A DNA stretch of 64,000 nucleotides. Origin: Nitrospira sp. (GTDB lineage: Bacteria; Nitrospirota; Nitrospiria; Nitrospirales; Nitrospiraceae). The number at the start of each line of letters is the position of its first letter. Within the stretch, counting starts at the first letter, position 1. This document shows, piece after piece, positions 50,349-59,630 of the stretch. The position numbers were made by a program, and so were the translations under genes. Below the pieces are notes generated by a model. The model ran no database searches and was not told the DNA's origin. It saw only the letters and a list, made by a program, of their open reading frames with translations. The stretch is taken from positions 1,930,721 through 1,994,720 of the forward strand of contig JARFXR010000001.1 in assembly GCA_029194535.1 (NCBI GenBank), given 5' to 3'.

Positions 50349-50403
50349 CTGCAAATCTTGCAGCGGATTTTGCGCTGAGAGCAGGAATCTGCAATTCTTG
50401 CAG
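50349..50403. promoter_or_regulatory. Tandem 15-bp dyads, likely activator-binding sites
   Basis: Two palindromes CTGCAA-N3-TTGCAG at 50349-50363 and 50389-50403, identical at 14 of 15 positions and 40 bp centre to centre. They begin 39 bp after the stop of the sigma-54 regulator gene and lie about 140 and 180 bp upstream of the predicted start of the -24/-12 promoter at 50511, the standard geometry of NtrC-family upstream activating sequences. Confidence 0.6.
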
Positions 50404-50510
50404 AGACGATGAAAGACGCTACCTTTCTGTAGTCCCTTTCCTTTGCGTCATTCGCGTAAACACGCCGTCTTCTTAGCATCTTCCATTCAGCCCCCGGTCT
50501 GATTATTCCA

Positions 50511-50524
50511 GGCACCATCCCTGC
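50511..50524 (+). promoter_or_regulatory. Candidate sigma-54 (-24/-12) promoter
   Basis: GG at 50511-50512 and GC at 50523-50524 with exactly 10 bp between, in the context CCAGGCACCATCCCTGCA. The GGCAC part matches the sigma-54 consensus; the -12 half is CTGCA instead of TTGCA. Transcription would start near 50535, 20 bp before the small TPR gene. Confidence 0.5.
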
Positions 50525-50554
50525 ACGGTCAGAAGGAACTGACTTGTCAGATTC

Positions 50555-50793: not shown

Positions 50794-50952
50794 ATGCGCA
50801 GGCAGGTCTTGTGGGAAATGCTCGATGGCCTACCTCGCAACGGCGGGGATTTCTTTTGGATGCAGGTGAAACCGGTTCTATCCAGCGAAGCCGTGGTTCG
50901 TGTCCGTGCACTGATCGAACACCGAACCATCGTGGCAAGAGGGATTGTGTGA
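50794..50952 (+). CDS. Possible small protein, 52 residues
   Basis: Starts with ATG 2 bp after the small TPR stop. The product has a balanced composition (WEMLDGLPRNGGDFFWMQVK, then a helix ending ALIEHRTIVARG) and no known motif. Support comes from the tight packing: its stop overlaps the next start by 4 bp (GTGA). No strong ribosome site of its own; translation would depend on coupling. Confidence 0.35.
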   Translation: MRRQVLWEMLDGLPRNGGDFFWMQVKPVLSSEAVVRVRALIEHRTIVARGIV

Positions 50953-51116
50953 GGGCTTCAGCGAGTCTAAGAGAAGGAAAATCCGTGGCAGCGCTCTACA
51001 GGCAAGGATACGACGGCCTTCTGGATGCCGAACCCGTGTCCGTTCAGCCGGTCTGGGTCGCTGTGGTTTGGGAGTCGACACATGACAGTAGAACCTATCT
51101 CAAAATTCGTTTATGA
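50949..51116 (+). CDS. Possible small protein, 3' end altered by a MITE
   Basis: A GTG start overlaps the previous stop and is preceded by AGAGGGA. The 55-residue product runs SVAALYRQGYDGLLDAEPVS, then VQPVWVAVVWES. Its last eight or nine codons lie within the inverted-repeat element beginning at 51089, so the original C-terminus was probably replaced by the insertion. Coding status is uncertain. Confidence 0.3.
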   Translation: MRASASLREGKSVAALYRQGYDGLLDAEPVSVQPVWVAVVWESTHDSRTYLKIRL

Positions 51117-51242
51117 CGGGATGGGGTCTGCTGTCGTCATTCCCGCGCAGGCGGGAATCCAGACTATTCAGGTCACTCTGGATGCCCGCTTTCGCGAGCA
51201 TGACCGGTTCTTACCGGAATACCCATTTTGAGATAGGTTCTA
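51089..51242. mobile_element. MITE-like element with 16-bp perfect terminal inverted repeats
   Basis: GAACCTATCTCAAAAT at 51091-51106 is repeated in perfect inversion at 51225-51240, enclosing 150 bp. Both ends are flanked by TA (51089-51090 and 51241-51242), which would fit the TA target duplication of IS630/Tc1-type transposases. It has no transposase and contains an internal palindrome. It separates the sigma-54-linked small ORFs from the cupredoxin-like gene. Confidence 0.75.
51136..51204. repeat. 69-bp palindrome inside the MITE (REP-like)
   Basis: Begins GTCATTCCCGCGCAGGCGGG and ends with its approximate inverse (TCTGGATGCCCGCTTTCGCG, then AGCATGAC). The core TCATTCCCGC...GCGGGAATCCAG is a well-known intergenic repeat motif found in many Gram-negative genomes. 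Here it is nested in a terminal-repeat element. Confidence 0.6.
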
Positions 51243-51271: not shown

Positions 51272-52210
51272 ATGACGCATCGATGTATTCTCGCCACGAT
51301 AATGACGGTCACGACAGGTCTGGTTTCGCCGGCGATGGCCTCGTATGAAGCGATCACGGTACAGGACGGTGGAACCATCACGGGGATCGTGACGCTCGAT
51401 GGGGCGGTCCCCAAGCCCAAAGGATATAACCTGACGACGCTGCCGGATCCGCTCTATTGCGGACGCATTTCCGACGGACAGGGTTGGCGGATTTTGCAGC
51501 CGTTCGACGTCGCGCCGACCGGCGAGTTTCGCGACGTGGTCGTCTATCTGGATGGCGTCGGTCAAGGCAAGCCCTTCGAAGAAGCAGGCATCCCGCAGAT
51601 CGAAGCGAAAGACTGTCGCTTCCTGCCGTTTACCACGATCGTCCGCGACGAAGAGTCCGTGACCGTCGTCAACATGGACCCGGTGATGCACGATATTCAA
51701 GCCTATGAAACGTCGCACCTGGGCGCACGCGTCCTGTTCAATGTGCCGTTGCCGATGAATCCTCTCCACCCACGCAACTTTAAGGATCGCAGTGAGGCCG
51801 CCCTCTATCATCGTCACATGGCCGGCGCGCCAATGAAAGAGCTGGTCAAGCTCAGCAAGGGTCGTCGAATCTTCGTGATGCAGTGCGGCTTCCATGCCTA
51901 CATGGAAAGCTGGGGAGTGGCCGTGAGCAATCCCTATTTTGCCAAGACGGACGAGCAGGGTCGCTTCACCATCACCGGTGTGCCGGCCGGCACGTACAAG
52001 CTGGTGGTCTGGCACCCCTACGTCCGAACCGTCACCGAACAAACAGTCACCGTAGAGCCCAAGGGCACCGCCTCGGCGAGATTCACGATACCGGCTCCGA
52101 CCGGTCGGCTCTATGCCAACGAGGTGCTGGATCACGAGTATGTGCGGTACGGCGTGACTGAGAATGTGAAGAAGGAAATCGATCCGATGATTCAGAAGCA
52201 GGGCCACTGA
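51272..52210 (+). CDS. Secreted cupredoxin-like protein with carboxypeptidase-regulatory-like domain
   Basis: A 312-residue periplasmic protein. The signal peptide runs to about residue 26 (ILATIMTVTTGLVSPAMA). The middle part has the layout of a type-1 copper site: His140 in NMDPVMHDIQ and Cys205-x2-His208-x2-Met211 in CGFHAYMESW. A Gly-rich beta-sandwich (FTITGVPAGTYKLVVWHPYV) near 230-270 resembles carboxypeptidase-regulatory or Greek-key domains. ATG 51272 has AAGGA nearby; the frame running back to 51113 crosses the MITE and is rejected. It lies 73 bp before hyfB. Copper binding is inferred from motif only. Confidence 0.72.
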   Translation: MTHRCILATIMTVTTGLVSPAMASYEAITVQDGGTITGIVTLDGAVPKPKGYNLTTLPDPLYCGRISDGQGWRILQPFDVAPTGEFRDVVVYLDGVGQGKPFEEAGIPQIEAKDCRFLPFTTIVRDEESVTVVNMDPVMHDIQAYETSHLGARVLFNVPLPMNPLHPRNFKDRSEAALYHRHMAGAPMKELVKLSKGRRIFVMQCGFHAYMESWGVAVSNPYFAKTDEQGRFTITGVPAGTYKLVVWHPYVRTVTEQTVTVEPKGTASARFTIPAPTGRLYANEVLDHEYVRYGVTENVKKEIDPMIQKQGH

Positions 52211-52283
52211 TCTCGAGCACTCTGCAACAGGCTACCATGGTTCCAGCGTGAAAGACATCCGGTTCGTCAAGTACATATAGTTG

Positions 52284-54311
52284 ATGGCCATTTTTCTCAC
52301 AGTCATGCTGGCGGTGTATGCCGCCGGGATTGTTCTTCCGCTCACTATTCCGGTCAGACCGACCCTCCAAAACCTCCTCGCGAACAGCCTTGCAGGTGTC
52401 GCCGCTACACTGGGGATCGTCCTCGGCGCCACCGGGGTCGTCGCACCGGATCCGCTGACCCTAACCTGGTCCTCGTCGATACCGCTTCTCGCCTTTGCCG
52501 TCCGCCTCGATGCTCTGGCGTCGTTCTTCCTCTTGACCATCTCTCTTGTGGGTCTTGCCGCGGCGATCTATGCCGTCGGGTATCTGCGACATCTGCCCAG
52601 CCGTGTGTCACCGGCCGCGCTGGGTGCGCTTTTCAACGCGTTTCTTTGTGCGATGACGCTTGTGGTGATTGCGGACAACGGCTTCTTATTTCTCATCGCC
52701 TGGGAGCTGATGTCGTTGATCTCCTACTTGCTCGTGGTCACGGACCACGAAGATCCGGACGTGCGATATGCCGGGTTCCTGTACCTGATCATGGCCCACA
52801 TCGGAACCGCGTTCATTGTCGTGATGTTCCTTCTGCTGTTCCAACAGGGGAACACGTTCTCCTTCGAAGCATTCCGTCATCCCGAACGGGTGCTGCCGAC
52901 CTCGCTGCAGACGGTCGTTTTTCTGGCGGCTCTGATCGGATTCGGAACCAAGGCGGGGATCGTGCCTCTGCACGTGTGGTTGCCCTACGCCCATCCCGCC
53001 GCCCCGTCGCATATTTCGGCCCTCATGTCCGGAGTGATGATCAAGACGGCGATCTACGGAATCTTGCGGGTGTCGTTCGACTTTCTCGGTGGCCAGTTCC
53101 CTTGGTGGTGGGGATTCTTGGTCTTGGTGATCGGCGCAGTCTCAGCCGTTCTCGGAGTGATGTACGCCTTGATGGAGCACGATCTCAAACGACTCCTGGC
53201 CTATCACAGTGTGGAAAACATCGGGATTATCCTGCTCGGTCTCGGTGCCGGGATGCTGTTTCACGCCTATGGATTGGAAGACCTGGTAGCACTGGGTTTG
53301 TTGGCCAGCCTGTATCATACGGTCAATCACGCTCTGTTCAAAGCCTTACTGTTCCTCGGGGCCGGGGCACTGCTCTCCGCCACCCGGACCCGCAACATGG
53401 AAGAATACGGCGGTTTGCTGCGTCGCATGCCCTGGACCGGGGCATGTTTCCTCGTCGGCGCGGTCTCCATTTCGGCGTTACCGCCCACCAACGGATTCGT
53501 CAGCGAATGGTTGGTCTTTCAAACGCTCTTTCAGAGCGGTCAGGTCCCCTCGCTCTTAATGAAGCTCATGCTGCCGCTCGCTGCCGCGATGCTCGCATTA
53601 ACCGGAGCCCTGGCATTGGTTTGCTTCGCGAAGGCGTTCGGCATTTCATTCTTGGCGCTGCCGCGTAGCTCTCATGCCCGACATGCCGAAGAAGTCTCCT
53701 GGACCATGAGGATCGGGATGATCATTTTGGCGGCGACCTGTGTGCTGCTCGGACTGGCACCGATGGTCGTCGTGCCGCTACTCGATCATGTGATTCAGCC
53801 GATGACCGGCCGTTCGATTGCCGGGCAGATGCTCGCCCTGGGCGGATGGACGCTGATCCCGGTCGATGCCGAGTTTTCCAGCCTCTCGTCACCGGTATTG
53901 GCGATGCTCATCGCTGGTTCCGCGATGATGGCTCTTGCACTGACTGCTCTGGCTGGAGGATGGCGCGAGAAGCGGTATGCCAGAACCTGGGGGTGCGGTC
54001 TGAATTTGTCACCTCGCATGGAATATACGGCTACGGCCTTCGTCCAACCGATCAAGCGGGTATTCGGGACGATATATCAGCCGACCCTCAAACTCGAAAC
54101 CGAGTTGATGCACGAATCGCAATACTTCGCCAAGAGCCGGCGTTTCACCGTGCGCATTGAGCCGATTTTCGAAACATACCTGTACCTACCGGTGGCCGCC
54201 ATCATGCCTGCACTGGCGGACCGGCTCCGGGTGATCCAGGCGGGGAGTCTCCACGTCTACCTGGCCTATATATTCGTCACCCTCGTACTGCTGTTGTTGA
54301 TTGCGCTGTAA
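52284..54311 (+). CDS. hyfB: HyfB-like antiporter subunit (Ehr/hydrogenase-4 type)
   Basis: A proton-channel membrane subunit related to NuoL/Mrp antiporters. It has about 16 hydrophobic helices over 675 residues, with conserved features AWELMSLISYLLVVTDHE, GTKAGIVPLHVWLPYAHPAAPSHIS, LMEHDLKRLLAYHSVENIGI and FKALLFLGAGALL. The C-terminal extension matches HyfB and not NuoL. TTG 52281 directly precedes ATG 52284; neither has a Shine-Dalgarno, and a 10-codon ORF ends 3 bp before the ATG. It opens a six-gene operon. Confidence 0.9.
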   Translation: MAIFLTVMLAVYAAGIVLPLTIPVRPTLQNLLANSLAGVAATLGIVLGATGVVAPDPLTLTWSSSIPLLAFAVRLDALASFFLLTISLVGLAAAIYAVGYLRHLPSRVSPAALGALFNAFLCAMTLVVIADNGFLFLIAWELMSLISYLLVVTDHEDPDVRYAGFLYLIMAHIGTAFIVVMFLLLFQQGNTFSFEAFRHPERVLPTSLQTVVFLAALIGFGTKAGIVPLHVWLPYAHPAAPSHISALMSGVMIKTAIYGILRVSFDFLGGQFPWWWGFLVLVIGAVSAVLGVMYALMEHDLKRLLAYHSVENIGIILLGLGAGMLFHAYGLEDLVALGLLASLYHTVNHALFKALLFLGAGALLSATRTRNMEEYGGLLRRMPWTGACFLVGAVSISALPPTNGFVSEWLVFQTLFQSGQVPSLLMKLMLPLAAAMLALTGALALVCFAKAFGISFLALPRSSHARHAEEVSWTMRIGMIILAATCVLLGLAPMVVVPLLDHVIQPMTGRSIAGQMLALGGWTLIPVDAEFSSLSSPVLAMLIAGSAMMALALTALAGGWREKRYARTWGCGLNLSPRMEYTATAFVQPIKRVFGTIYQPTLKLETELMHESQYFAKSRRFTVRIEPIFETYLYLPVAAIMPALADRLRVIQAGSLHVYLAYIFVTLVLLLLIAL

Positions 54312-54322
54312 CGGAACGACGG

Positions 54323-55288
54323 ATGCTGATCCCGACTATCCTGTCTGCCATTGTCCTCTCGGTGACCCAGGTGCTCGTCCTGGTGATGCTGGCGCCGCTC
54401 ATCGTCGGGCTCATCCGCAAGGTGAAGGCTCGGCTCCAATGCAGGCGTGGACCAAGCCTTTTCCAACCCTACGCGGACCTGGCCAAGCTGTTCAGAAAGC
54501 AGTCGGTTATTTCGTCGACCACTTCGTGGATCTTCACAGCGACGCCGTACATTGTTTTCGGCTCTACCTTGACAGCTGGCTTGCTGGTGCCGGTCTTCGT
54601 CGCTCAGGTTCCCCTGAGCTTTGCGGGCAACATCATCGCGCTCGTCTACTTGTTCGCCCTCGGTACGTTCTTCCTGATCCTGGCCGGGCTCGATGCGGGT
54701 TCGGCATTCGGCGGCATGGGCGGCAGTCGTGAGGCCATCGTCGCATCACTGACGGAACCGGCCATGATCTTGTCGATCTTTGCCATCGCCCTGACGGCCG
54801 GGTCAACCAACCTCAGCACGATCGTCCACAAGACCGCGCTGCTCGAGGGAGTGGCCACTGATCCGGTGCCACATCTGATGGCGCTCGCGGCGCTGTTCAT
54901 CGTCACCCTCGCGGAAACGGGCCGTGTTCCCGTCGACAATCCCGCCACCCATCTCGAACTCACTATGATTCACGAAGCCATGATTCTGGAGTACTCAGGC
55001 CGGTACCTGGCCCTGCTCGAATGGGCTTCGGCCATCAAACTGTTGGTATTTCTGACGCTCATCGCCAACGTGTTCGCTCCCTGGGGTATCGCCACGGACC
55101 CAACGCCCCTGGCGCTCGTGGTCGGGGGCATGGTCTATGTGGCGAAGGTATCGCTCCTGGCGGCACTGATCGGCTTGATCGAGTGTATGTTCGCCAAACT
55201 GCGCCTTTTCCGCGTCACCGATCTGCTCGGCGTCGCCTTCATTCTGGCGCTGCTGGGGCTGCTGTTTTTTTACATTTTGCAAGACTGA
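54323..55288 (+). CDS. hyfC: HyfC/HycD-like (NuoH-like) membrane anchor subunit
   Basis: The NuoH homologue that anchors the peripheral arm. 321 residues and about eight hydrophobic helices, with RKVKARLQCRRGPSLFQPYADLAKLF (the conserved cytoplasmic loop) and LAETGRVPVDNPATHLELTM, the family signature with charged residues in the quinone-cavity region of complex I relatives. ATG 54323 follows hyfB after 11 bp. Close homologues are the group-4 hydrogenase C subunits. Confidence 0.92.
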   Translation: MLIPTILSAIVLSVTQVLVLVMLAPLIVGLIRKVKARLQCRRGPSLFQPYADLAKLFRKQSVISSTTSWIFTATPYIVFGSTLTAGLLVPVFVAQVPLSFAGNIIALVYLFALGTFFLILAGLDAGSAFGGMGGSREAIVASLTEPAMILSIFAIALTAGSTNLSTIVHKTALLEGVATDPVPHLMALAALFIVTLAETGRVPVDNPATHLELTMIHEAMILEYSGRYLALLEWASAIKLLVFLTLIANVFAPWGIATDPTPLALVVGGMVYVAKVSLLAALIGLIECMFAKLRLFRVTDLLGVAFILALLGLLFFYILQD

Positions 55289-55290
55289 CC

Positions 55291-55959
55291 ATGTCCTGGC
55301 TCACGCCTCGTATCGGCGCGCAACTCGTGGATCTCGGATCGGCCATGCTGCTGCTCACGTGCTTTGCGATCGTGGCCCAGCGACGGCTATCCGCCTGCGT
55401 GGATCTCTTCGCCCTGCAGTCCGCCTTCCTCGCTATGACCGCGACGCTGGTGGCGTTTCTGACCGGGACACGGCACATCTATATTGCCGCGGCTCTGACG
55501 GTGGTCGTTAAGAGCGTCGTCATTCCGCACGTGCTGCGGCGGGTGATCGAGCGCCTGAATGTCACGCGCGAACTCGTCATGAATGTCAATGTTCCGGCAA
55601 GCCTGCTGATCTGCGGAGCCCTGGTGATGACTGCCTTCATCATCACGCAACCCATCATTTCGTTCGGCCACCTGCTGACCCGAAACTCACTCGCCATTGC
55701 GCTGGCCATCGTACTGATCGGGTTTTTCACGATGATCGCGCGACAGAAGGCCGTCACCCAGTTGATCGCCTTTCTGGTCATGGAAAACGGACTGTTCTTG
55801 GGCGCAACCGCGGCGACGTACGGTATGCCCTTGATCGTCGAGTTGGGCGTCTTTTTCGACGTGCTGATCGCGGCGCTGATTGCCGGCATCTATACGAACC
55901 GGCTGCAGGATGCGTTCGACAGTGTGGACACCAGCCGTCTCAGCGAGTTGAAGGAATGA
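55291..55959 (+). CDS. hyfE: HyfE-like membrane subunit (NuoK-like)
   Basis: A 222-residue membrane protein of the HyfE family, related to NuoK with extra N-terminal helices. Six to seven hydrophobic segments; IAAALTVVVKSVVIPHVLRR and ARQKAVTQLIAFLVMENGLF are characteristic. ATG 55291 lies 2 bp after the hyfC stop; a longer frame overlapping hyfC is not used. The stop overlaps hyfF by ATGA. Confidence 0.88.
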   Translation: MSWLTPRIGAQLVDLGSAMLLLTCFAIVAQRRLSACVDLFALQSAFLAMTATLVAFLTGTRHIYIAAALTVVVKSVVIPHVLRRVIERLNVTRELVMNVNVPASLLICGALVMTAFIITQPIISFGHLLTRNSLAIALAIVLIGFFTMIARQKAVTQLIAFLVMENGLFLGATAATYGMPLIVELGVFFDVLIAALIAGIYTNRLQDAFDSVDTSRLSELKE

Positions 55960-57470
55960 CGCCCACAATGACGACCATTGCCGTGGCCGTACTGCTGTGC
56001 GCGCCGTTCACGGCCGGGTGCTGGAGCCTCCTCATTCGTAGTTCCCAACAACTCCACCTGGTAAATCTCGGCAGTATGGGCCTCCTGGTGGCGGCGGAAA
56101 TTCTGCTCGCCCGAACGGTCCTGACACAGGGTTCAGTGATGGTATTTGACGAGATGGTCTACATCGACGCCCTCTCGTCGGTGATTCTGTTCATCATCGG
56201 CACCGTCGGTCTGGCCTGCTCGCTCTATATGCGGTCGTACATGGATGAACAGGTGGCCAGGGGAACTATTGCGCCCCACCGACTGAACTTGTTTTTTTTC
56301 CTGTTTCACATGTTCTTGCTGGCCATGGTGCTCGCCACGGTGGCCAACAGTCTTGGCGTGCAATGGGTGGCGATCGAAGCCACAACGCTGGCGACGACCT
56401 TCTTGATCGCGTTCTGGCGCCGGCGCGAGTCGCTCGAGGCTGGGTGGAAGTATCTGATTCTCTGCTCGGTCGGAATTTCGCTGGCCCTGTTCGGCGTCGT
56501 CCTCATGTACTATTCGTCTCTCCGCGTGCTCGGCGACGTGAATTCGGCGCTGAACATCACCCAGTTGCAGGCGATCGCCACGCAACTGGATCCGCACATT
56601 CTGAAGCTTGCCTTCGTCTTTCTCTTCGTCGGCTACGGGACGAAGGTCGGCCTCGTGCCGATGCACAGTTGGTTGCCTGACGCCTATACGGAAGCCCCGG
56701 CGCCGGTCGCCGCCATGCTCGCCGGCGTGTTGGAAACGGTCGCCGTCTATGCCATCCTGCGTAGCAGGGGTATCGTCGATCAGGCCGTCTCGCCAGAATT
56801 TTCCGGCAGCCTGCTGGCGCTGTTCGGCCTGGTGTCCTTCGCGATTGCAGCTCTGTTTCTGCTGCTGCAGCACAACTACAAGCGGCTGTTGGCCTATTCC
56901 AGCATCGAGCACATGGGTCTGGCGATGGTCGGATTCGGAGTCGGCGGACCGATCGGCGTTTTCGGCGGTTTGTTCCATTTGGTGAATCATGCCTTCGCGA
57001 AATCGCTGGCGTTCTTTGCGGCCGGCAATATTCACCGGCGCTACAAGACGGTGGAGATCGGGGAGGTGCAGGGGTTGGCCAGCGTCTTGCCCGGTTCCGC
57101 GCTGGCGCTGATGGTCGCGGGGCTCGCCTTGGCGGCGCTACCGCCCTTTGCGCTCTTTGCCAGCGAAATGCAGATCGTCACCGCGCTGGGCACCTCGGGT
57201 TTCCCGGGCGGGTGGGGGGCTCAGGGAGTGGGCGGCTCCGTCCTGCTCTTGCTGCTGTGCGGCCTCGTGGCGTTTGCCGGCTTTCTCTACCGCATTACCG
57301 GCATGGTCTGGGGGCCTGCGCCTCAAACCGTGGTGCAGGGAGAACCTTGGTCGGCCGGACATCTCTCGCTTCTCTTCCTAAGCCTTCTTCTCGCCGGATT
57401 GGGCTGGGTCTTGCCTCCGCCCTTGCACCAGTTGCTTGAAACGGCCTCCACCTTGTTGGTCGGCCGATAG
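55956..57470 (+). CDS. hyfF: HyfF-like antiporter subunit (NuoN/NuoL-like)
   Basis: The second antiporter-like subunit, 504 residues with about 14 hydrophobic helices. It has the conserved GYGTKVGLVPMHSWLPDAYT and LLQHNYKRLLAYSSIEHMG, including the Lys on the broken helix that moves protons in complex I. Overlap with hyfE (ATGA) implies coupled synthesis. Together with HyfB it gives two predicted pump modules. Confidence 0.9.
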   Translation: MTPTMTTIAVAVLLCAPFTAGCWSLLIRSSQQLHLVNLGSMGLLVAAEILLARTVLTQGSVMVFDEMVYIDALSSVILFIIGTVGLACSLYMRSYMDEQVARGTIAPHRLNLFFFLFHMFLLAMVLATVANSLGVQWVAIEATTLATTFLIAFWRRRESLEAGWKYLILCSVGISLALFGVVLMYYSSLRVLGDVNSALNITQLQAIATQLDPHILKLAFVFLFVGYGTKVGLVPMHSWLPDAYTEAPAPVAAMLAGVLETVAVYAILRSRGIVDQAVSPEFSGSLLALFGLVSFAIAALFLLLQHNYKRLLAYSSIEHMGLAMVGFGVGGPIGVFGGLFHLVNHAFAKSLAFFAAGNIHRRYKTVEIGEVQGLASVLPGSALALMVAGLALAALPPFALFASEMQIVTALGTSGFPGGWGAQGVGGSVLLLLLCGLVAFAGFLYRITGMVWGPAPQTVVQGEPWSAGHLSLLFLSLLLAGLGWVLPPPLHQLLETASTLLVGR

Positions 57471-57485
57471 CATGAGGAGGACGCG

Positions 57486-59072
57486 ATGTCGGATGATGCA
57501 TTGATTGATGAGCAGCTTCGCGCGGCCTTCCCGACGTTGCCGCCAGCGTCGTCATCCCGCGCGGGCGTGATCCAGTATCGTGTGGCTCCTGCTCAATTGC
57601 TCGCTCTCGCAAGCTGCTTGCACCGCAAGCTACAAGGCCGATTGGCGCTGCTGTTCGCCCTCGACGGCAGACCGATCGCGGACCGATACGAGATTCAGTA
57701 CCTCTTCGGGCTGGGATCGCGCGGGCCCTGGGTATTGCTGACGCTGGAGCGGACGGGGGGTGATCGGCTCTTTCCATCGATCACACCGTCTGTCCATGCG
57801 GCGCAGTGGTACGAACGAGAAGTTCGGGACCAGTATGGATTGATTCCGCACGGCCATCCGGATCTGCGCCGTTTGGTCCGGCACGAACACTGGCCGAAGG
57901 GAACACATCCGCTCAAGAAGGACTTTTCCTGGGACCGGGAGCTGGAACGGCAACCGGGTGAGTATCGGTTTCGTCACGTGGAAGGAGAGGGCGTATTTGA
58001 AGTCCCGGTCGGCCCGATCCATGCCGGTATTATTGAGCCCGGGCACTTTCGCTTCTCCGTAGCCGGCGAACCGATCATGCAGCTGGAGGTGCGTCATTTC
58101 TGGAAGCACCGAGGCATCGAAAAACTGTTCGAGCAACAGCCGCTCGCGGCCGCGCTGCCGCTTTCCGAACGGATCTCCGGCGACACTACGGTCGGCCACG
58201 GTCTCGCGTACTGCCAGGCTATCGAGACGGTGATGCACATGACGGTGCCGCGGCGAGCCCGCTATCTGCGCTCCCTGTTTCTGGAGCTGGAACGACTTCA
58301 CAACCATCTTGGGGATGTGGGGGCGATCTGTAACGATACGGCCTATGTGCTGGCCCATGCGCATTGCGCGCGGATGAAGGAACAGCTCATGCAGCTCAAC
58401 GATCGTCTGACCGGCTCGCGATTCTTGCGCGGAGCCCTCTGTCTGGGAGGGGTTGTTCACGATCTCGCCCCCCGGAGAATGGAAGAGGTGGTGGACGAGT
58501 TGAATCGGATTGAGCAGGACTTCTCAGAACTCGAGGCCATCATTCTTGCGAACGCCTCCTTGACCGACCGGCTCGAAACCACAGGGGTACTTGCGGAACG
58601 GATCGCCTGGGACCATGGGGTCATCGGGGTGGTTGGGCGGGCATCGGGACTCGACCAGGATGTGCGGCGTGACCGTCCCTTTGCGGCTTACGACGAATTG
58701 CCGGTGAAGGTGACGCTCTACCGGTACGGCGATGTCCGCGCCCGTCTGCGGGTGCGTATCGACGAGATTCACGAATCCGTACGCCTCATCCGTGAGATCG
58801 CTCGGCTGATTCCACCCGGAGGGCTCGTCGCTGAATCGAGCGATCTTCCGACGGTAGGAGACTGGGCCGTCTCAGCTGTCGAAGGCTGGCGCGGCGAAAT
58901 TCTCTGTTTCGTCATGGCGGGGGAGCAGGGTCGGATCCATCGTTGCAAGGTGCGCGATCCCTCCTTTGTGAACTGGCCGGCTATTCAGTGGGCTGTAACG
59001 GGAAATATACTTCCCGATTTCCCGCTCATCAATAAGAGCTTCAATCTCTCGTACGCCGGGAATGATCTCTAG
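57486..59072 (+). CDS. hyfG: HyfG-like large subunit without NiFe cysteines (Ehr type)
   Basis: A 528-residue fusion of a NuoC-like N-terminal domain (about 1-165, ending EREVRDQYGLIPHGHPDLRR) and a NuoD/hydrogenase-large-subunit-like domain (from GPIHAGIIEPGHF). In hydrogenases the first nickel motif is R-x-C-G-x-C; here it is R229-I-S231-G-D-T234. The C-terminal DPCxxC is replaced by NKSFNLSY near 516-523. No nickel site can form, so the protein cannot be a hydrogenase. This matches energy-converting-hydrogenase-related complexes. The complex-I quinone Tyr region reads HFWKHRG, also altered. The electron partner is unknown. Confidence 0.9.
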   Translation: MSDDALIDEQLRAAFPTLPPASSSRAGVIQYRVAPAQLLALASCLHRKLQGRLALLFALDGRPIADRYEIQYLFGLGSRGPWVLLTLERTGGDRLFPSITPSVHAAQWYEREVRDQYGLIPHGHPDLRRLVRHEHWPKGTHPLKKDFSWDRELERQPGEYRFRHVEGEGVFEVPVGPIHAGIIEPGHFRFSVAGEPIMQLEVRHFWKHRGIEKLFEQQPLAAALPLSERISGDTTVGHGLAYCQAIETVMHMTVPRRARYLRSLFLELERLHNHLGDVGAICNDTAYVLAHAHCARMKEQLMQLNDRLTGSRFLRGALCLGGVVHDLAPRRMEEVVDELNRIEQDFSELEAIILANASLTDRLETTGVLAERIAWDHGVIGVVGRASGLDQDVRRDRPFAAYDELPVKVTLYRYGDVRARLRVRIDEIHESVRLIREIARLIPPGGLVAESSDLPTVGDWAVSAVEGWRGEILCFVMAGEQGRIHRCKVRDPSFVNWPAIQWAVTGNILPDFPLINKSFNLSYAGNDL

Positions 59073-59084
59073 CCGGAGGTGCAC

Positions 59085-59630
59085 ATGTTCCGCATTCTTA
59101 AGAAAAGCCTGAAGACAGGAATCGTGACGGGCCGTCATTCCGCCCCCACGGAATCGGCGGACGGAGGGCTTAGAGAAGCTCGCCAGAAAGCCGAGCCGTT
59201 CAGACGCTCGTTGACCATTCGGGAGGTCGATACGGGCTCCTGCAATGCCTGCGAGATGGAGATGAACGCCCTGACGAACCCCGTCTATGACATTGAGCGA
59301 TTCGGCATCCATATCGCCGCGTCCCCTCGTCATGCCGATGCCCTCGTGGTCACCGGGCCAGTTACCGTGAATATGGAACGGGCGTTGAAAGTTGTATATA
59401 GACAAACCCCGGATCCGAAGCTGGTGATCGCTCTGGGCGACTGCGCCATCAACTGTGGGCTGTTCAAGGGAAGCTATGCTGTGACCGGGCCGGTCGAGCG
59501 TCACGTGCCGGTGGATGTGCGCATCCCAGGATGTCCTCCCAGGCCCGAAGCGATTATTGAGGTGCTCCAAGATTTGAGGAGGAGGCGACAAGGAGAAGAT
59601 TTTCGAAACTGCCCCGATGAACACGGATAG
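59085..59630 (+). CDS. hyfI: HyfI-like (NuoB-like) 4Fe-4S subunit
   Basis: The small Fe-S subunit of the complex. Residues after about 45 form the NuoB-like fold with Cys53-x2-Cys56 (GSCNACEMEM), GDCAINCGLF and GCPPRPEAIIEVL, enough ligands for one 4Fe-4S cluster near the junction with HyfG. ATG 59085, 5 bp after GGAGG, gives 181 residues. It is the last gene of the run. No polyferredoxin (HyfA/HyfH), HyfD, maturation or formate dehydrogenase gene follows. Confidence 0.9.
   Translation: MFRILKKSLKTGIVTGRHSAPTESADGGLREARQKAEPFRRSLTIREVDTGSCNACEMEMNALTNPVYDIERFGIHIAASPRHADALVVTGPVTVNMERALKVVYRQTPDPKLVIALGDCAINCGLFKGSYAVTGPVERHVPVDVRIPGCPPRPEAIIEVLQDLRRRRQGEDFRNCPDEHG

Follow-up and report, generated by a model that had tools for sequence, protein, structure and literature searches.

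A two-component gene pair with a sigma-54-type response regulator, followed directly by two palindromes and a -24/-12 element, raises the question of what such a system controls. The locus lies in a 64,000-nucleotide stretch of the genome of Nitrospira sp., a nitrite oxidizer (contig JARFXR010000001.1, positions 1,930,721 to 1,994,720; hereafter the window). An earlier note, made from the letters of the window alone, had described kinase, regulator, sites, and promoter as a self-contained signaling unit. Judged from the same arrangement in about 45 relatives, the system most likely switches on the neighboring genes for an Ehr (hyf-like) complex. The features are collected in Table 1.

Table 1. 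Features of the two-component locus and its predicted target genes (window positions)
Feature	Position	Strand	Remarks
Sensor histidine kinase, 465 aa	47558-48955	+	N-terminal membrane segments; Pfam PAS, HisKA (His243), HATPase_c
Sigma-54 response regulator, 452 aa	48952-50310	+	Pfam Response_reg, Sigma54_activat, AAA_lid_14, HTH_8 (Fis-type)
Distal dyad CTGCAAATCTTGCAG	50349-50363		Predicted enhancer site 1, centre about -179; exact CTGCAA-N3-TTGCAG
Proximal dyad CTGCAATTCTTGCAG	50389-50403		Predicted enhancer site 2, centre about -139; exact CTGCAA-N3-TTGCAG
-24/-12 promoter AGGCACCATCCCTGCA	50510-50525	+	GG 50511-50512, GC 50523-50524; predicted transcription start about 50535
TPR protein, 78 aa	50555-50791	+	First gene 3' of the promoter; Pfam TPR families
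CUP, predicted secreted beta-sandwich protein	51272-52210	+	C-terminal Pfam CarboxypepD_reg; predicted start, ATG 51254 also possible
HyfB-like membrane subunit	52281-54311	+	NCBIfam hydrogenase 4 subunit B, 751.6 bits (cut-off 667)
HyfC/NuoH-like membrane subunit	54323-55288	+	Pfam NADHdh
HyfE-like membrane subunit	55291-55959	+	Placed after hyfC and before hyfF; frame of ORF 55021-55959; predicted start
HyfF-like membrane subunit	55956-57470	+	Pfam Proton_antipo_M; NCBIfam hydrogenase 4 subunit F below cut-off
HyfG/EhrL-like large subunit (no CxxC)	57486-59072	+	Pfam Complex1_49kDa, Complex1_30kDa
HyfI/NuoB-like small subunit	59079-59630	+	Pfam Oxidored_q6

The two-component pair and its predicted sites

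The regulator gene overlaps the kinase gene by 4 bp. The earlier note had read the regulator as a sigma-54 activator from its GAFTGA motif (residue 220), and this is borne out by the full domain set of such an activator: a REC domain with the phospho-acceptor motif TDLKMPG at residue 54, an AAA+ domain with a Walker A motif near residue 173, and a Fis-type HTH. Among the measured parts of the regulator, conservation was highest in the region of the recognition helix (0.957). The same reading supposed an rpoN gene, and the genome carries a single copy (PF04552, E = 1.6e-56, G000:C2:185521-186003). The best NCBIfam models were AtoS for the kinase (281.8 bits, cut-off 646) and AtoC for the regulator (483.9 bits, cut-off 714); the regulator scored 440.4 bits against the NtrC equivalog, below the cut-off of 558.6. 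The regulator is AtoC/NtrC-like, yet none of the named equivalogs shown was matched above its cut-off. Its closest named relatives in a genome collection belong to Nitrospira and to Nitrospiraceae MAGs. Membership in the PrsK/PrsR (PEP-CTERM) system, suggested by weak TPR/PrsT and PrsR scores, was rejected, as neither protein reached the NCBIfam cut-off (regulator, 399 of the 502.6 bits needed; kinase, 89.3 of 300 bits).

The two CTGCAA-N3-TTGCAG palindromes are present as the earlier note had described them, identical at 14 of 15 bases and 40 bp apart from start to start. Pattern searches of the whole genome (3,979,322 bases in five contigs) returned no other exact copy, with about 0.19 copies expected from base composition. 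The proposal to define a regulon by such a scan thus yielded no site beyond the locus itself, and so no wider regulon. Allowing up to one mismatch gave 22 sites, compared with eight for a reversed control pattern, and none of 13 one-mismatch sites that were fetched had a second dyad arranged with a sigma-54 box.

The GG-N10-GC behind the dyads was likewise confirmed. The element AGGCACCATCCCTGCA matches the sigma-54 consensus (TGGCAC-N5-TTGCA-like) at 9 of 11 bases, GG-N10-GC included. By itself such an element is unremarkable, with 139 matches at up to three mismatches in the window and 153 expected, whereas the composite pattern TGCAN5TGCA-N95-125-GGCAYN6TGCA matched the genome once and its reversed control never. 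The significance of the promoter therefore comes from its link to dyads at the right distance and not from the -24/-12 element alone. Counted from a start placed about 12 bases after the GC, the dyad centres fall where the earlier note had put them (about -180 and -140).

Conservation of the proposed switch in Nitrospiraceae

Orthologues of the regulator, 73-91% identical, occurred in 51 of 147 Nitrospiraceae genomes, the source genome included, and the predicted switch is conserved in about one-third of the family as sampled. An independent pattern search found dyads plus promoter in 47 of the 147 genomes, compared with one genome for the reversed control. The pattern was present in 43 of the 51 genomes with a regulator orthologue and in 4 of the 96 without; the compared genomes are related, so that Fisher p values overstate their independence. 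Broken contigs account for three of the four exceptions, which show such a cut or carry the TPR gene: in G132 and G141 the regulator gene is truncated where the contig ends, and in G127 the contig begins after the regulator. The match in the fourth, G036, is probably due to chance. Eight regulator-bearing genomes lacked the strict pattern. The reading in the earlier note of a sigma-54 activator with predicted enhancer sites ahead of a -24/-12 promoter is thus supported: relatives keep the arrangement, and it goes with the regulator gene.

The arrangement recurs downstream of the regulator orthologues in sense orientation and, apart from second target copies, adjoins the regulator gene; the TPR gene lies anywhere from about 40 bases to well over 1 kb away. 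We aligned 51 promoters selected for the presence of a dyad. An exact TGCA-N5-TGCA proximal dyad at a fixed, narrow distance from the -24 box was found in 50 of them, a figure that this selection biases upward, in contrast to the pattern search. That distance is 117-122 bp (about 121) across divergent intergenic sequence. Exact TGCA-N5-TGCA motifs numbered 81 in the aligned set and 0.08 in shuffled sequences. In 30 of the 51 a distal dyad precedes the proximal one by 40-44 bp, or about four helical turns. GGCA and TGCA of the -24/-12 element are invariant, partly because the selection demanded GG and GC. Taken across the family, this geometry is a clean case of constrained enhancer-promoter spacing outside Proteobacteria.

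Some promoters differ in detail. At about 11 loci (including L026, L103, L106-L109, L115, and L123) the distal dyad lies about 100 bp upstream of the proximal one instead, and this group also has a different -12 side, CAGTATGCA, which together suggest a second enhancer geometry. The aligned promoters also share a conserved TAAG/GTAAG block, which spans about -53 to -40 relative to the -24 box. An IHF-like match falls on the minus strand at -52/-53 from the -24 box in 24 of the 51 loci, and the genome has four HU/IHF-family genes. No good IHF match was found between dyads and promoter in the window; the block, IHF-like in about half of the relatives, is unconvincing here as an IHF site.

Among the 80 loci kept from outside Nitrospiraceae, regulator identity drops to about 50%, and no close relative of an operon gene lies next to the regulator. 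The few composite matches found there look like chance.

Genes behind the promoter

The hyf-like operon of Nitrospira is already known (PMC5596200), and the complex encoded here agrees with published hyf-like/Ehr complexes both in its hyfBCEFGI order and in having no CxxC in the large subunit (PMC5596200, PMC7305129, PMC10284858, PMC12542776); the missing CxxC was found earlier by others (passages of PMC7305129, PMC10284858, and PMC12542776). Group 4 [NiFe] hydrogenases are recognized by two CxxC motifs, and the HyfG/EhrL-like large subunit has none. Hyf/complex I-like subunits combined with such a large subunit correspond to Ehr as defined in PMC10284858. The complex is widespread in Nitrospira, including comammox strains; in published papers its role is called open and its large subunit unsuited to hydrogen chemistry.

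We determined the gene order in the relatives by tblastn, using the window genes and additional genes taken from one of these genomes. Kinase, regulator, dyads, and promoter are followed by an optional lipoprotein, small protein, and CODH-like protein (PF02552), then by TPR, by an optional PFOR-like and second CODH-like protein, and finally by CUP, hyfB, hyfC, hyfF, hyfG, and hyfI. In most relatives the promoter precedes TPR, CUP, and the hyf genes on the same strand. The gap between TPR and hyfB is about 10 bp in L055 and 67 bp in L054, and that between TPR and CUP is tens of bp in L056 and L128. The unit proposed by the earlier note therefore stands with respect to kinase, regulator, predicted sites, and promoter; it is not self-contained, since the promoter in relatives heads an output operon of TPR, CUP, and Ehr genes.

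The genes of the region do not all travel together. Close relatives of the TPR protein were found in 52 genomes, 49 of which also bear the regulator; three have TPR alone and two the regulator alone. Thirty-four genomes with an hyfG match lack the regulator, and eight with the regulator lack an hyfG match. Eight hyf regions fetched from regulator-less genomes (L247-L254) contained neither a TPR gene nor the dyad-promoter arrangement. These distributions argue that regulator, dyads, promoter, and TPR gene form a cassette, which is placed at the head of the Ehr region. Two of the regulator-less hyf operons (L253 and L254) are each preceded by a single, unrelated sigma-54-like match.

Three genomes indicate that the target is the Ehr region broadly rather than the hyf genes alone. 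G048 and G092 have no hyfG match, and their promoter stands before CODH-like and PFOR-like genes. In G002 (L255, G002:C76) a second composite dyad-promoter lies 3' of hyfI and before a lipoprotein gene, and the regulator seems to serve two operons, as far as the predicted sites can tell.

In the window, TPR and CUP are separated by about 480 bases that hold a weak terminator-like stem (50833-50848) and a MITE-like element. Read-through as far as the hyf genes is for this reason less certain in the window than in the relatives, and the continuation from TPR into CUP and hyf is the weakest step of the reading. The MITE-like element (51089-51242) has perfect 18-nt terminal inverted repeats, TAGAACCTATCTCAAAAT, and its 16-nt end occurs in 17 copies in the genome.

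A probable dedicated switch, its alternatives, and known systems

We put at roughly 0.78 the probability that the locus is a sigma-54 two-component system dedicated to one target region, made up of kinase, regulator, two predicted sites, promoter, and the TPR-CUP-Ehr genes. On a signal, the membrane kinase would phosphorylate the AtoC/NtrC-like regulator, which would then bind both CTGCAA-N3-TTGCAG sites, about four helical turns apart, and oligomerize. DNA looping and GAFTGA-driven ATP hydrolysis would open the sigma-54 promoter, and the transcript would begin with the TPR gene and most likely run on into CUP and the hyfBCEFGI-like (Ehr) genes. The dedication to the Ehr region, after the manner of AtoSC, is drawn from two observations: the promoter in relatives heads the TPR-CUP-Ehr operon, and the regulator-less hyf operons examined have neither dyads nor TPR.

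The sites and promoter might act as described and yet drive TPR alone, perhaps as part of the regulatory circuit, with CUP and hyf served by a promoter of their own. TPR tracks the regulator far better than hyf does (the 49 genomes with both), some hyf operons exist without the regulator, and TPR is parted from CUP in the window by the long gap with its possible terminator and MITE-like element. In relatives, however, CUP or hyfB often follows TPR within tens of bases, and CODH-like or lipoprotein genes stand between promoter and TPR at many loci, which means that the promoter serves an operon and not TPR alone. A separate promoter also found little to recommend it, the single sigma-70-like match between TPR and hyfB being no better than chance. 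We regard control of TPR alone as unlikely.

Still less probable, in our estimate, is that the dyads are bound by another protein, such as a repressor or a different sigma-54 activator. Binding by the adjacent regulator is a prediction, and these genomes commonly encode paralogous sigma-54 response regulators, which appeared as weaker candidates in the orthologue search. Against this, the pattern accompanies the regulator in most genomes that have it, is practically absent elsewhere, and adjoins the regulator gene, and the distance between dyads and promoter suits an enhancer and not an operator. That the palindromes are chance occurrences or hairpins in RNA, for instance one that terminates the regulator gene, is scarcely credible. 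Each could fold into a stem of 6 pairs closed by a 3-base loop, but no T run follows the stems, the fold is no better than that of shuffled sequences (z = -0.92), and Rfam gave no match, so that an RNA element or terminator was rejected. Two exact dyads 40 bp apart also exceed the fraction of one expected in the genome, and the locking of the dyad position to the promoter in relatives already contradicts this explanation.

The dedicated switch that we favor combines parts known from several systems. In NtrB-NtrC, tandem dyad enhancers lie upstream of a -24/-12 promoter, and the system described here shares this layout in its predicted sites and, in its regulator, the domain order of NtrC. It differs in missing the NtrC cut-off, in its CTGCAA-N3-TTGCAG site, and in having no global regulon in this genome. 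FhlA, which controls formate hydrogenlyase/hyf operons, carries GAF domains as sensors and lacks a REC domain. FhlA and the regulator described here are both sigma-54 activators connected, the latter by prediction, with a hyf-type complex, whereas the present system is a kinase-regulator pair and its large subunit lacks CxxC. An FhlA homologue had been proposed as the hyf regulator of Nitrospira by analogy with E. coli (in the relevant passage of PMC5596200).

The closest parallel is AtoS-AtoC with atoDAEB of E. coli, in which a PAS kinase and a sigma-54 response regulator have their main target operon close by; AtoS and AtoC also supply the best NCBIfam models for both proteins. The AtoC sites upstream of atoD, GCTATGCAGAAATTTGCACA, span -184 to -144 (passages of PMC3118216), and are likewise paired TGCA-based palindromes at a comparable place upstream of a sigma-54 promoter. 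The AtoC sites are adjacent and of the form TGCA-N6-TGCA, whereas the dyads here lie 40 bp apart and read TGCA-N5-TGCA. Both proteins also miss the equivalog cut-offs by far, and the target is the hyf/Ehr region, not acetoacetate catabolism. The two-component sigma-54 kind is already known; no report of such a system paired with Ehr turned up in the literature searched, where the selected passages of open-access papers name no adjacent two-component system or such promoter for Nitrospira Ehr.

A dedicated, conserved sigma-54 switch suggests that the Ehr complex is made on demand and not constitutively. The switch would offer a handle on a respiratory-type complex: a condition or ligand that activates the kinase would make the role of Ehr testable. 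More broadly, the Ehr complex and the CODH-like, PFOR-like, and TPR proteins may constitute, in many Nitrospira, one inducible energy-conversion module, whose private sigma-54 two-component switch would be gained and lost as a cassette of kinase, regulator, dyads, promoter, and TPR. We hold the odds of this wider proposal to be about even; were it true, the signal of the kinase would reveal the purpose of the complex.

A CODH gene beside the hyf-like operon is described for Ca. N. nitrosa (in the part of PMC5596200 consulted), which fits the CODH-like genes found in the relatives. In many Nitrospiraceae the region contains proteins resembling CODH epsilon (PF02552) and PFOR domain II (for example, L065 7308-8000 and 9071-10522), which may prove decisive for understanding the Ehr complex.
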